A stretch of DNA of 6,788 nucleotides from Pseudomonadota bacterium (GTDB taxonomy: Bacteria > CALINM01), in assembly GCA_026415985.1 (NCBI GenBank), contig JAOAGA010000079.1:1-6788 (forward strand), in the 5' to 3' direction. A program made the translations under genes and the position numbers. Positions 2,365 to 6,788 of this stretch are shown here, in pieces (the first letter of the stretch is position 1; each line of letters opens with the position of its first letter). Below the pieces are notes generated by a model that was given only the letters and a program-made list of their open reading frames with translations, was not told where the DNA came from and did not search any database.

Positions 2365-2565
2365 ATGAAGAATATTAAAGAAAAGGATTGGTGGATAATA
2401 CTTGTTGTGGTTGGAGTTGTTGTCCTTAATTATCCCTTTATGAGTATCTTCAATGGGTTGATATACATCGCAGGATTACCGCTCTTTTTTATTTATCTGT
2501 ATTTAGGCTGGATAATATCAATTTTTATAATCTACCTGTACGTTAGGTTTCTTAATAACAGTTGA
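2365..2565 (+). CDS. Small two-helix membrane protein preceding the SLC5-type kinase (CbrX / DUF3311-like)
   Basis: The 66-residue product has a short charged N-terminus (MKNIKEKDWW) and two hydrophobic segments at about residues 9-30 and 36-62. They are separated by a short link containing Asn, Gly and Pro. The pattern NYPFMSIFNG followed by AGLPLFFIYLYLGW resembles the small proteins that commonly precede SLC5-family transporters or transporter-kinases, such as CbrX before Pseudomonas CbrA and the DUF3311 group. That assignment is from memory of the pattern and context, not from a search. It may be a small membrane partner or a translational-coupling leader for the kinase. ATG 2365 has no Shine-Dalgarno, and the promoter -10 ends only six bases before it. 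Its TGA stop (2563-2565) is two bases from the kinase ATG and overlaps an alternative TTG start at 2562. Its tight position and membrane character argue that it is a real gene. Confidence 0.82.
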   Translation: MKNIKEKDWWIILVVVGVVVLNYPFMSIFNGLIYIAGLPLFFIYLYLGWIISIFIIYLYVRFLNNS

Positions 2566-2567
2566 CT

Positions 2568-5500
2568 ATGTCTTACATTCCCGTTATAACATTAGCTTAT
2601 CTAATCATCCTGTTTTTAATTGCCTATCTTGGTGATAGAGCAAAGGAAAAAGGCAAAAGCCTTGTTTCAAACCCATATATATATTCTCTTTCTTTAGCTG
2701 TTTACTGCACCGCCTGGACTTTTTATGGCAGTGTCGGTTTATTTATGCATCATGGCTTTGCCTATATGCCAATATATATAGGGCCAACCTTTGCTTCATT
2801 TACCTGGTGGTATTCTCTCAGAAAAATGGTTAAGATATCAAAAAAACACAATACCACCTCAATTGCAGACTTCATTAGCACAAGATACGGAAAGTCAAGT
2901 TTACTGGCAGGTATAATATCTTTCTTTATCTTTATAGGTCTTCTTCCATATATTGCTTTACAGATTAAGGCGGTTACTAATTCCCTTAACTTATTATATT
3001 TTTACAAAAGTAGTTTTAAAGCAGTCTCCATAGGAGGTTTTTATAAAGACCTTTCCTTTTATATAGCGGTTATACTTGCTATCTTTGGTGCCCTTTTTGG
3101 TGCAAGAAAGTTAGATGTAACTGAAAAACATGAGGGAATGGTTCTTGCCATATCCTTTGAAGCCATTGTGAAATTGGTTGCCTTTTTGGTTGTAGGTATT
3201 TATGTTACCTATTTTATTTTTAACGGATATGGGGATATTTTCAGGAGTGGTGAATATTTTAAGGAAATCAAAAACCTTTATACAATAGGAGAGTCACCGA
3301 CACCTTCCTATTTTCAGTGGTTAGCAATGATGATACTCTCTGGTGTAGCGGTAATGCTTTTACCAAGGCAGTTCCACATAGCAATTATCGAGAATACCAA
3401 TGATAATCATATAAAGAAGGCCATGTATATCTTTCCTCTTTATTTGTTTTGTATAAGTCTATTCGTTCCAGCCATAGCAATCGGAGGACGGCTTTTGGGA
3501 ATATCTCTTGATTCGGCTGATATAAGTGTATTACTTATCCCTGCTATGAGAGGAGAGGATTTTATCGCCGTTCTGGTTTTCCTTGGTGGTTTTTCTGCAG
3601 CAACAGGTATGGTAATCGTTGAGACAGTGGCCATAAGCACCATGATTCTTAACCATATAGTGTCGCCGTTTCTTTTAAAATTACGTCTAAAAAAATTAGA
3701 TATGTCTCATCTGCTTATACATCTGAAAAGGGCAATTATACTTTTTATCACCGTCAGTGGTTATATCTATTTTAAGCTTTTAGGTGAAGAGAAAATACTT
3801 GTAGATATTGGACTTATGTCTTTTTGTGCGGTTCTTCAGTTAGCTCCCGCAACATTTTTAGGGTTATACTGGGAGAAGGTTAATAAGGCAGGTGCCATAG
3901 CTGGCATTACTGCAGGTTTTATAATTTGGTTATATGTGCTTTTTATTCCGAGTTTTGCAGGGTCATTTCCCTTTATTAACGAGATAATACAAAAGGGATT
4001 GTTTAATATATCGGCACTTAAACCCTTTGAGTTATTTTATCTTAAAGGACTTGATAATTGGAGTCATTCAATATTCTGGTCCCTGACCTTTAATTTTATA
4101 TTTCTTGTTATTTTTTCAATTATTTCTGAACAATCAGAAATCGAGAAGGAGATGGCAAAGAGCTTTATTTCGGAGGGTAGGGTAGAGACCAGGAGGGTTA
4201 CTCTTGAGTCTAAGCATATTTCACACTCTCCGTCACTTGTTGATTACAGAGGCTTTCTTGCCAAGATAATCGGTGATACGCAGGCTGATAAGGTTATAGA
4301 AGGGTTTATATCTGAAAGAGGTCTCAAGAAAGATGAAACAATTAGTTCAAAGACCGCCCTTGAACTGAGAGAACACGTTGAAAAAAATCTTTCTGCCTAT
4401 TTAGGCTCTGCAACTGCAAAAAACCTCTTGGATAATTTTTTAAAAATTTATGGAACAAAGGTGGTTGAGATTTTTGATATATTCCATGATATCTCCGAAT
4501 CTCTTAAAGAAAGCAGAGAAACTCTGGCAGTTAAGGTCAATGAGATAAAGTTATTATACTCTTCCTTAGAGACCCTTCTTTCAAGTCTTGACAAAGAAGT
4601 AGTTATGAATAATATTCTTGATATTATTGTAAAAAATTTTAATGCCGATGGCTGTGCTGTAATCCTGAAAGATAAAGATGGAATTTTAAGGATAAAAAAA
4701 CATATTGGTCTTAAAGAAGAAGATGTTAATAAGATTGAGTTTGAATGTGATTCCAATACCTATGTGGCAAAGGTTTTTGAGAGCAGGAAAATAGAAGTAA
4801 TTGAAGATGTAGATAAACTTGCTGTACCGCCGAAGATTAAAAGGCTTAGTGATGATACTCCTATTAAATCACTGACAGTTGCACCGATCGTTGTTGCCAA
4901 TGTCCCCCTCGGGGTCATTGTAACTGTTCACAAAGATAAGAGATTTTTTTCTGAAACCTTTCAGAATTTTTTACAGGGGCTTGCAAACCAGTTGGGTCTC
5001 GCCCTTAAAAATGCTGAACTTTATGAGGAATTGAATAAACTGAATATAGATCTTGAGAACAAGGTTAAAGAAAGAACTATTGAGCTGGAAAGAAAATCCA
5101 AACTACTTGAAGAAGCTAATATTCATCTGAAAGAAGTGGACAGATTAAAATCTCAGTTTTTAGCAACTATGTCGCATGAACTAAGAACACCTTTAAACTC
5201 AATAATTGGTTACACTCAATTAATACTTGATGGTGTTGATGGTTCCATAACGGAGGAACAGAGGCAGGACTTGGAAAGAATTGAGAAGAACGGCAAACAT
5301 CTGTTACAACTTATAAATGATATTCTTGATCTTTCCAAGATTGAAGCAGGCAAGATGGAACTTAATATTGAGAAGGTAAGTTTAAGGGAACTGATTGATA
5401 ATATTATACCGATGGTCAGGCCACTGATTGCCGAAAAAAAGATAAGCTTTAATATAAAGATTGAGAAAAACGTAACGGTTTTAGCCGATAGGCAGAGATT

Positions 5501-6614
5501 ATCACAGGTTCTTATCAATTTACTTACTAATTCAGTTAAGTTCACTCAGGAGGGTTTTATAGAGATAGGCTGTACTTTAAAGAAGGATTTAATTAATAAA
5601 ACCTGGGCAGAAATATATGTTAAAGATACCGGTATTGGTATAAGCAAGGAAAATCAGGCATTAATTTTTGAAGCTTTCAGGCAGGTTGATGATAAATCTG
5701 CAAAAAAACCTAAGGGAACCGGTTTGGGTTTAAGTATCACCAAAAGGCTTGTAGAGATGCACGGTGGTTCTATCTGGGTGGAGAGCGAGCTTAATCAGGG
5801 CACAACAATGTTTTTCACAATGCCGGTGTCTGAAGAGGAGTTTCAGTCTTTTGTAAAGGAAGTATCACTTTTCAAAGGAACGGAAAAGAGGATTGTTATT
5901 GTTGAAGAAAGAGAAGATATTCTTCAGGTATTATATGATTTCCTGTCTAAGGAAGGTTATACCGTTTTTTATTCCGGTTTTAAAGACGCCATCGATGAAA
6001 TAAAAAGAAAAAAACCTATGGCTATAGTTTTAGATATTATCTACTCTGAGGAAAATAACTGGTCTATACTTCAGAAACTAAAAGAAGATAGCGAAACTGC
6101 TAAAATACCGGTTATTTTTATATCAATAGAGGGTGATTTTCAGAAAGGATATTCCGTTGGCCCCATTGACTATATATTAAAGCCCATTATTAAAGAAGAT
6201 GTTATAAGAGAGTTAAAAAAGATTGAGGAAAATATTAAAAATAAGTTTGTTTACATAGTTGATGATGATGCAGATTCCATAAAACTGCTTGAAAAAATTT
6301 TATTGGAAAAAAATTATAAGGTTAAATCATTTACTAACGGGAAGGAATTAATTGAAACCCTCTTAATAGAAACACCGGGTGTAATATTGCTTGATCTGTT
6401 TATGCCTGAGATAACCGGCTTTGAGATAATAGAAATTTTAAAGAAGAAAGAGTTAACAGATATTCCTATTATCGTTATAACCGGGGGAGAGCTTACGGAA
6501 GAAGAAAAAAATAAATTACTTACCGATGTGAAAAAAATATTTATCAAGGCCTCTCTTGACAAGGATGAGTTGTTAAAGGAGATAAAAAGATCTATAGAGA
6601 GGTATGAAGTATGA
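2568..6614 (+). CDS. Hybrid sensor histidine kinase: SLC5 transporter-STAC-GAF-HisKA-HATPase-REC-REC (CbrA/CrbS-like)
   Basis: The protein has 1348 residues from ATG 2568. Residues 1-520 form a multi-helix sodium/solute symporter (SLC5) module. It has stretches typical of CbrA-type sensors: YCTAWTFYGS 46-55, LPYIALQIK 126-134, LPRQFH 265-270 and GGFSAATGMVIVE 340-352. A STAC-like linker follows at about 555-628, then a GAF domain at about 669-820 and a coiled coil at about 820-858. HisKA carries the phospho-acceptor H870 in SHELRTP. The ATPase has N988 in the N box, DTGIGI 1020-1025 and GTGLGL 1050-1055. Receiver 1 has E1113-E1114, D1156 and K1205. Receiver 2 has D1232-D1234, phospho-acceptor D1276, T1305 and K1327. 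The kinase is therefore predicted active, anchored in the cytoplasmic membrane and sensing or transporting an unknown solute. CbrA has PAS, not GAF, and no fused receivers. No Hpt domain is visible. A TTG at 2562 is an alternative start. No Shine-Dalgarno is seen, so translation may be coupled to the small upstream gene. Confidence 0.95.
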   Translation: MSYIPVITLAYLIILFLIAYLGDRAKEKGKSLVSNPYIYSLSLAVYCTAWTFYGSVGLFMHHGFAYMPIYIGPTFASFTWWYSLRKMVKISKKHNTTSIADFISTRYGKSSLLAGIISFFIFIGLLPYIALQIKAVTNSLNLLYFYKSSFKAVSIGGFYKDLSFYIAVILAIFGALFGARKLDVTEKHEGMVLAISFEAIVKLVAFLVVGIYVTYFIFNGYGDIFRSGEYFKEIKNLYTIGESPTPSYFQWLAMMILSGVAVMLLPRQFHIAIIENTNDNHIKKAMYIFPLYLFCISLFVPAIAIGGRLLGISLDSADISVLLIPAMRGEDFIAVLVFLGGFSAATGMVIVETVAISTMILNHIVSPFLLKLRLKKLDMSHLLIHLKRAIILFITVSGYIYFKLLGEEKILVDIGLMSFCAVLQLAPATFLGLYWEKVNKAGAIAGITAGFIIWLYVLFIPSFAGSFPFINEIIQKGLFNISALKPFELFYLKGLDNWSHSIFWSLTFNFIFLVIFSIISEQSEIEKEMAKSFISEGRVETRRVTLESKHISHSPSLVDYRGFLAKIIGDTQADKVIEGFISERGLKKDETISSKTALELREHVEKNLSAYLGSATAKNLLDNFLKIYGTKVVEIFDIFHDISESLKESRETLAVKVNEIKLLYSSLETLLSSLDKEVVMNNILDIIVKNFNADGCAVILKDKDGILRIKKHIGLKEEDVNKIEFECDSNTYVAKVFESRKIEVIEDVDKLAVPPKIKRLSDDTPIKSLTVAPIVVANVPLGVIVTVHKDKRFFSETFQNFLQGLANQLGLALKNAELYEELNKLNIDLENKVKERTIELERKSKLLEEANIHLKEVDRLKSQFLATMSHELRTPLNSIIGYTQLILDGVDGSITEEQRQDLERIEKNGKHLLQLINDILDLSKIEAGKMELNIEKVSLRELIDNIIPMVRPLIAEKKISFNIKIEKNVTVLADRQRLSQVLINLLTNSVKFTQEGFIEIGCTLKKDLINKTWAEIYVKDTGIGISKENQALIFEAFRQVDDKSAKKPKGTGLGLSITKRLVEMHGGSIWVESELNQGTTMFFTMPVSEEEFQSFVKEVSLFKGTEKRIVIVEEREDILQVLYDFLSKEGYTVFYSGFKDAIDEIKRKKPMAIVLDIIYSEENNWSILQKLKEDSETAKIPVIFISIEGDFQKGYSVGPIDYILKPIIKEDVIRELKKIEENIKNKFVYIVDDDADSIKLLEKILLEKNYKVKSFTNGKELIETLLIETPGVILLDLFMPEITGFEIIEILKKKELTDIPIIVITGGELTEEEKNKLLTDVKKIFIKASLDKDELLKEIKRSIERYEV

Positions 6615-6635: not shown

Positions 6636-6788
6636 ATGGAGAAAAGAAAAATTCTTGTTGTCGATGATGAGATTGACAATGTAGTTCTGTTAGAGAAAAG
6701 ATTGAAGGCAACGGGATATGATGTCCTTTCTGCCTATGATGGTGAGGAGGCTATAAATAAGACTTTTAGCGAAAACCCCGATTTAATC
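6636..6788 (+). CDS. Response regulator receiver protein (partial, 3' end outside window)
   Basis: The open frame starts at ATG 6636 and runs off the right edge after 51 codons. It begins MEKRKILVVDDEIDNVVLLE, the first strand and helix of a CheY-like receiver. The acidic metal-binding pair is D10-D11. The second strand and helix follow (GYDVLSAYDGEEAI), and the window ends in NPDLI just before the expected phospho-acceptor aspartate. The start is 21 bases after the kinase stop, so it is likely in the same operon and may accept phosphate from that kinase. The visible part cannot tell whether it is a lone receiver or is fused to a DNA-binding, cyclase or kinase output domain. The receiver assignment is firm; partnership with the kinase is inferred from position. 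Confidence 0.93.
   Translation, partial: MEKRKILVVDDEIDNVVLLEKRLKATGYDVLSAYDGEEAINKTFSENPDLI

Follow-up and report, generated by a model that had tools for sequence, protein, structure and literature searches.

A CbrX-like small membrane protein accompanies SLC5-STAC sensors with diverse outputs, among them a kinase with tandem receivers

Introduction

The described systems closest to the locus considered here are CbrA of Pseudomonas – an SLC5-STAC-PAS-HK protein that works with the regulator CbrB and couples histidine transport to the proton gradient (PMC7918813, PMC13022988) – and CrbS/MxtR, a hybrid kinase of the form SLC5-STAC-PAS-HK-REC that already carries a receiver (PMC7918813, PMC5715377). 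CbrA is accompanied by a small peptide, CbrX, which has so far been a matter of the Pseudomonadaceae and for which translational coupling is the only role shown. In P. putida cbrX encodes 58 amino acids and overlaps cbrA; conservation of the gene was reported within Pseudomonas and Azotobacter, and its role was attributed to translational coupling, the sequence of the peptide being dispensable for cbrA translation, as a frame-scrambled peptide kept CbrA levels (PMC6591292). A 2026 preprint presents CbrX bound to the SLC5 domain of CbrA, packed on TM3 and TM8 (cryo-EM, 1.9 Å), and reports that CbrX is not required for growth on histidine (PMC13022988).

Here we describe a related locus contained in a stretch of 6,788 nucleotides (hereafter the window), which is one entire contig of a 1.57-Mb draft genome. 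An earlier note had drawn attention to a "CbrA-like" sensor kinase of unusual architecture preceded by a gene for a small membrane protein. We take up both genes, and find that it is the smaller of the two that has the wider significance.

Results

The features of the window, with the evidence for each, are as follows.

5′ of the 66-residue ORF: end of tyrS, an MFS transporter gene and an M50 protease gene
1438-2334: the M50 site-2 protease gene, 5′ of the small gene
2365-2565, + strand: CbrX-like two-helix membrane protein of 66 residues (67% identity to its counterpart in locus L017)
2568-6614, + strand: SLC5-STAC-GAF-HisKA-HATPase-REC-REC sensor kinase (1348 residues from the ATG at 2568)
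2568-4127, + strand: SLC5 (SSS) transporter domain, approximately residues 1-520 (phmmer match to 10ed_A; SLC5 structural match)
4236-4451, + strand: STAC four-helix domain, residues 557-628 (alignment to the STAC domain of 10ed_A; four helices in the model)
4587-5006, + strand: GAF domain (Pfam GAF_2, 50.6 bits; Z 22.5 to 3ci6_B)
5148-5351, + strand: HisKA (DHp) domain with phospho-acceptor H870 (Pfam PF00512, 84.2 bits; HELRTP at 870)
5487-5831, + strand: HATPase_c catalytic domain (Pfam PF02518, 100.3 bits)
5886-6227, + strand: receiver 1 (one of two Response_reg stretches; REC match 5886-6215)
6249-6584, + strand: receiver 2 (Response_reg, residues 1230-1341; canonical residues retained)
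6636-6788, + strand: 5′ part of a kinase gene (REC-HisKA-HATPase) that runs off the contig

The small ORF and the kinase ORF are both open and adjacent: the kinase ATG at 2568 lies 2 nt past the stop of the 66-residue ORF, and inspection of the sequence revealed no clear Shine-Dalgarno motif in front of it. An alternative start, TTG at 2562, would give a kinase of 1350 residues overlapping the small gene. The two genes occupy different reading frames, and the termini of their products lie on opposite faces of the membrane. The small gene placed directly before the kinase by the earlier note is genuine, and the identical layout, small gene included, recurs in a second genome of the same family (locus L017; 62% identity).

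That the kinase combines transporter, STAC, GAF, kinase and two receiver domains in one chain was borne out. The SLC5-STAC chain of P. putida CbrA (10ed_A) matched residues 5-628 in a phmmer search (255 bits, E 1e-74), the 624-residue alignment extending through the end of the STAC domain. Pfam cut-offs were cleared for GAF_2/GAF, HisKA, HATPase_c and Response_reg, the last in two stretches, so that the HMM check proposed by the earlier note succeeded for these domains; for SSF (which two relatives reach) and for STAC, Pfam returned no match with the window kinase. Since Pfam gave neither, the SLC5 and STAC calls rest on the match to 10ed_A together with an AlphaFold model (pLDDT 84). In that model residues 1-540 align with CHT1, SGLT1, SMCT1 and NIS (Z 28-30), residues 557-628 form four helices and the GAF part matches GAF structures at Z of about 22; 10ed was absent among the structural matches listed (library to April 2026). 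The protein therefore has what marks an SLC5-STAC sensor: an SLC5 domain of the type with 13 TM helices and the LeuT fold, a four-helix STAC bundle between this and the signalling domains, and a C-terminal output composed of HisKA, HATPase_c and two Response_reg domains.

Both the transporter motifs and the kinase catalytic residues are intact, as had been proposed; the kinase boxes read H870ELRTP, NLLTNS, DTGIG and GTGLGL. Receiver 1 retains its Asp and Lys, the usual acidic pair being EE. A Pfam scan of the chain found no HPt domain, and because of this the built-in relay suggested earlier is only partly upheld: the two receivers are present in the chain and a complete relay is not established. 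The results that might have overturned the earlier note did not materialise: STAC and GAF domains were both recognised, the architecture as a whole did not prove to be characterised already and the small gene is not missing beside close homologues of the kinase.

Evidence that the small gene belongs with the sensor came from its distribution. An SLC5-STAC alignment of five sequences served to scan genome contigs, and the 80 loci most similar to the query were taken; these span Pseudomonadota, Thermodesulfobacteriota, Myxococcota-labelled MAGs, Nitrospirota, Bacteroidota, Balneolota, Spirochaetota and Chloroflexota, although the taxon labels of MAGs may be wrong. A partner was scored where a two-TM ORF of 40-140 amino acids ended near the sensor start. 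Such an ORF lies upstream in 80 of 83 testable SLC5-STAC loci (the window and further relatives included); when 500 other ORFs from these loci were put to the same test, 14 had one. The 80/83 figure is not an unbiased rate, the scanned loci being the 80 closest to the query, a bias to which broader genome samples give a partial answer. Among the three misses a peptide was found by eye in two, leaving L092 without one. In a broad genome sample the small gene was present at 14 of 16 further SLC5-STAC loci (one through a weak CbrX-type match). A profile of the small protein, run against 386 genomes, found 16 places in 14 genomes, every one directly upstream of an SLC5-STAC gene, and no match in any genome of that sample lacking an SLC5-STAC gene; in eight named genomes all 11 profile matches were likewise directly upstream of SLC5-STAC genes. 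The earlier note had asked whether the small gene consistently comes first: it precedes nearly all sensors of the family, in many phyla, whether the output is HK, PP2C or GGDEF-EAL. No small gene was recognisable at the CrbS-type loci L119 and L146, nor at L118, L122, L092 and L150.

The small protein is also conserved in sequence. Proline and tryptophan are invariant in 80 of 80 aligned members (P24 and W49 in profile A3) and an isoleucine is kept in 74; the 66-residue protein, lying directly upstream of its SLC5-STAC gene, has the two helices and the N-x-P...W...I motif. Its AlphaFold model is a hairpin (pLDDT 88). Between the window and L017 the small gene has a dN/dS of 0.13, with dS near saturation, and pairwise values across the family, where measurable, range from 0.02 to 0.49; the sequence of the small peptide is therefore under selection. 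The family has no Pfam or NCBIfam model. Solved structures searched with the 66-residue sequence and the family profile yielded no CbrX chain, and Foldseek found nothing with the 66-residue model, because a short helical hairpin carries little signal. Mirror-tree comparison of the small protein with the SLC5 domain gave a correlation of 0.75, which we did not count as evidence of contact, since a common history of the species would by itself produce such a value.

How CbrX relates to this family was approached through a Pseudomonas locus (L123) whose CbrA is 90% identical to 10ed_A and has CbrX upstream. The window-family profile matched this CbrX weakly (HMMER, E 0.006), and profile comparison placed CbrX with the family at 79% (reversed control, 0.4%); one reversed-profile control reached 17%, so that values of that size are uninformative. 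The same Pseudomonas genome holds two further family members, each by another SLC5-STAC gene. Most likely CbrX belongs, as a divergent member, to this much wider family of small proteins.

Other small membrane proteins, the DUF3311, DUF997 and DUF4212 partners of SSS symporters, resemble the CbrX-like family in kind; we know of no link between them and STAC sensors. All three Pfam families appeared among weak matches of small-family members. The DUF3311 profile scored 65% against the small family (0.2% reversed), and homology to DUF4212 found no support, profile comparison having given nothing. Elsewhere in the window genome (G000:C148:186-413, L167) a DUF4212 small subunit is followed by the start of a putative SSS symporter.

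In a quick FastTree tree of 100 SLC5-STAC parts the proteins of the window and L017 join those of Desulfuromonadales-type genomes with 97% support, and the CbrA clade forms a separate, long, fully supported branch. The nearest kin of the window kinase are SLC5-STAC-GAF proteins (L022, L025, L028, L032 and relatives) that share with it SLC5-STAC kinship, the position of the GAF domain and an upstream small gene, but end in a SpoIIE/PP2C phosphatase and have neither kinase nor receiver. Their GAF region, aligned from the STAC end onward, is 22-27% identical to that of the window. Pfam confirmed the SpoIIE/PP2C output in L022, L025, L028, L032 and L150; nearly all of this sister group have a CbrX-like gene upstream, L150 being without one. 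The description "CbrA-like" thus holds at the level of the SLC5-STAC family, but the protein falls with the GAF-PP2C proteins, far from the CbrA clade, and has a different pocket.

Outputs among the loci are mostly plain kinases, with two GGDEF-EAL proteins: in L048 and L066 (Pseudomonas tumuqii and Thauera) SLC5-STAC is joined to GGDEF-EAL, and each has a CbrX-like gene upstream. The SLC5-STAC protein of L118 (Motiliproteus) lacks both a recognisable output domain and a small gene. Response_reg was found in one of 78 cytoplasmic parts scanned, that of the window, and also in L017. The tandem receivers, seen only in these two sister genomes, look special to the window lineage. To that extent the architecture is unusual, as the earlier note had it; in other respects it has precedents, the small partner in CbrX (PMC6591292, PMC13022988) and a receiver in CrbS/MxtR (PMC7918813, PMC5715377). 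CrbS/MxtR differs from the window kinase in having one receiver and a PAS domain, and upstream of it no small gene could be recognised (L119, L146).

The Na2-site lysine of CbrA (K196) is K202 in the window, and a lysine occupies this site in 89 of 89 readable rows. For this reason proton-coupled transport, with the lysine replacing sodium as in CbrA, is likely to be the mode of the family, as judged from the alignment. The window pocket (Y46, T48, W50, T51, Y66, Y70, S258 and F419) follows the family majority (Y, T, W, T, Y/F, Y, K, S, F). It departs from CbrA at three positions, S53, A56 and F248 of CbrA being T, T and S in the window. L119, of the CrbS type, has T53, T56 and S248, as in the window. 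CbrA is the exception at these positions, T, T and S being found in most other family rows; on these residues its histidine specificity may be derived.

Discussion

The main result of this work is a small partner protein that is family-wide and independent of output; the window kinase itself is a variant of known SLC5-STAC sensors. CbrX had previously been described from Pseudomonadaceae only, and the wider family is the new element: in the literature, as far as our partial coverage reaches, we found no statement on its wider distribution. A partner conserved in sequence across unrelated outputs argues for a place in the sensing module itself, and makes a CbrX-type role testable in many systems. 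It may be that SLC5-STAC transceptors across phyla have in the CbrX-like proteins an ancient subunit of their own, one that probably mediates dimer contacts through which the state of the transporter reaches whatever output is attached; we regard this proposition as evenly balanced.

The window shows the same input module rewired to new outputs – SLC5-STAC-GAF coupled to a two-receiver hybrid kinase, with a second kinase beside it. The explanation that we favour, and hold to be probable as a whole, is a two-gene SLC5-STAC nutrient transceptor with a CbrX-type subunit, receivers in cis and a downstream kinase cascade. It builds on what is directly established: the architecture, the intact catalytic residues, the linkage of small gene and sensor across the family, and the selection acting on the small protein. 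The 66-residue subunit would pack as a helical hairpin on the SLC5 domain, a contact that in the window lineage we infer by homology to the divergent CbrX and its complex with CbrA. The SLC5 domain, acting as a proton-coupled transporter, would bind a small solute; its conformation would be passed to STAC and thence to GAF, which may add a cytoplasmic ligand, and the STAC/GAF signal would set autophosphorylation at H870. From H870 phosphate would then pass to both receivers of the same chain and, probably, also to the N-terminal receiver of the adjoining soluble kinase. The latter step has its basis in gene order: the REC-HK gene adjoins the sensor kinase in both same-family genomes, and this retention suggests that the sensor passes phosphate to a second kinase in a kinase-to-kinase cascade. 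The product of 6636-6788 shares 62% identity with the N-terminus of the 357-residue REC-HK of L017; a search for the rest of the gene found no clear continuation.

The 66-residue protein probably belongs to the sensor proper and is more than a leader peptide. Were it only a leader, its translation would open the kinase start and the peptide itself would be inert, much as coupling was reported for cbrX-cbrA, where a scrambled peptide kept CbrA levels (PMC6591292). The layout of the window, where 2 nt separate stop and start and the kinase has no clear Shine-Dalgarno in front of it, fits such coupling, as does that of the family, the nearest sensor start falling between overlap and 10 nt past the small-gene stop in 61 of 80 loci. 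Against this, the proline and tryptophan are kept in every aligned member and the isoleucine in nearly all, dN/dS is well below 1, the profile recognises the small peptides specifically and gaps exceed 40 nt in seven loci; the solved structure, moreover, has CbrX physically attached (PMC13022988). We therefore think a leader-only role quite unlikely.

Somewhat less improbable, though still doubtful, is that the SLC5 domain purely senses, binding without transport, and that the GAF domain serves as the main input. Sensing needs no working transporter, and overproduced CbrA without its TM part still signals (PMC6591292); against this stand the conserved pocket and Na2-site lysine, and transport of histidine with the proton gradient by CbrA (PMC7918813, PMC13022988). 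That the window kinase is a CbrA orthologue that senses histidine has hardly any claim at all. The two share SLC5-STAC homology, the Na2-site lysine and a close-coupled upstream gene for a two-helix protein. However, the window kinase does not group with Pseudomonas CbrA in the (quick) tree, its pocket has T, T and S in place of S53, A56 and F248, and where CbrA has PAS before the DHp domain and no receivers it has GAF and two C-terminal receivers; its neighbour, moreover, is a REC-kinase and not an NtrC-type regulator.

Returning to the proposed transceptor, a short carboxylate is the more likely ligand than histidine, a guess drawn from neighbour genes in relatives, not in the window: an acetyl-CoA synthetase homologue (acs) is found near 27 of 84 loci and a further SSS symporter near 20 of 84. 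The neighbours in the window itself (tyrS, MFS and M50 protease) offer no hint of the ligand. The M50 site-2 protease gene lies 5′ of the small gene in both the window and L017, and an M50 protease gene is found upstream in a Nitrospirae locus too (L097, 49% identity).
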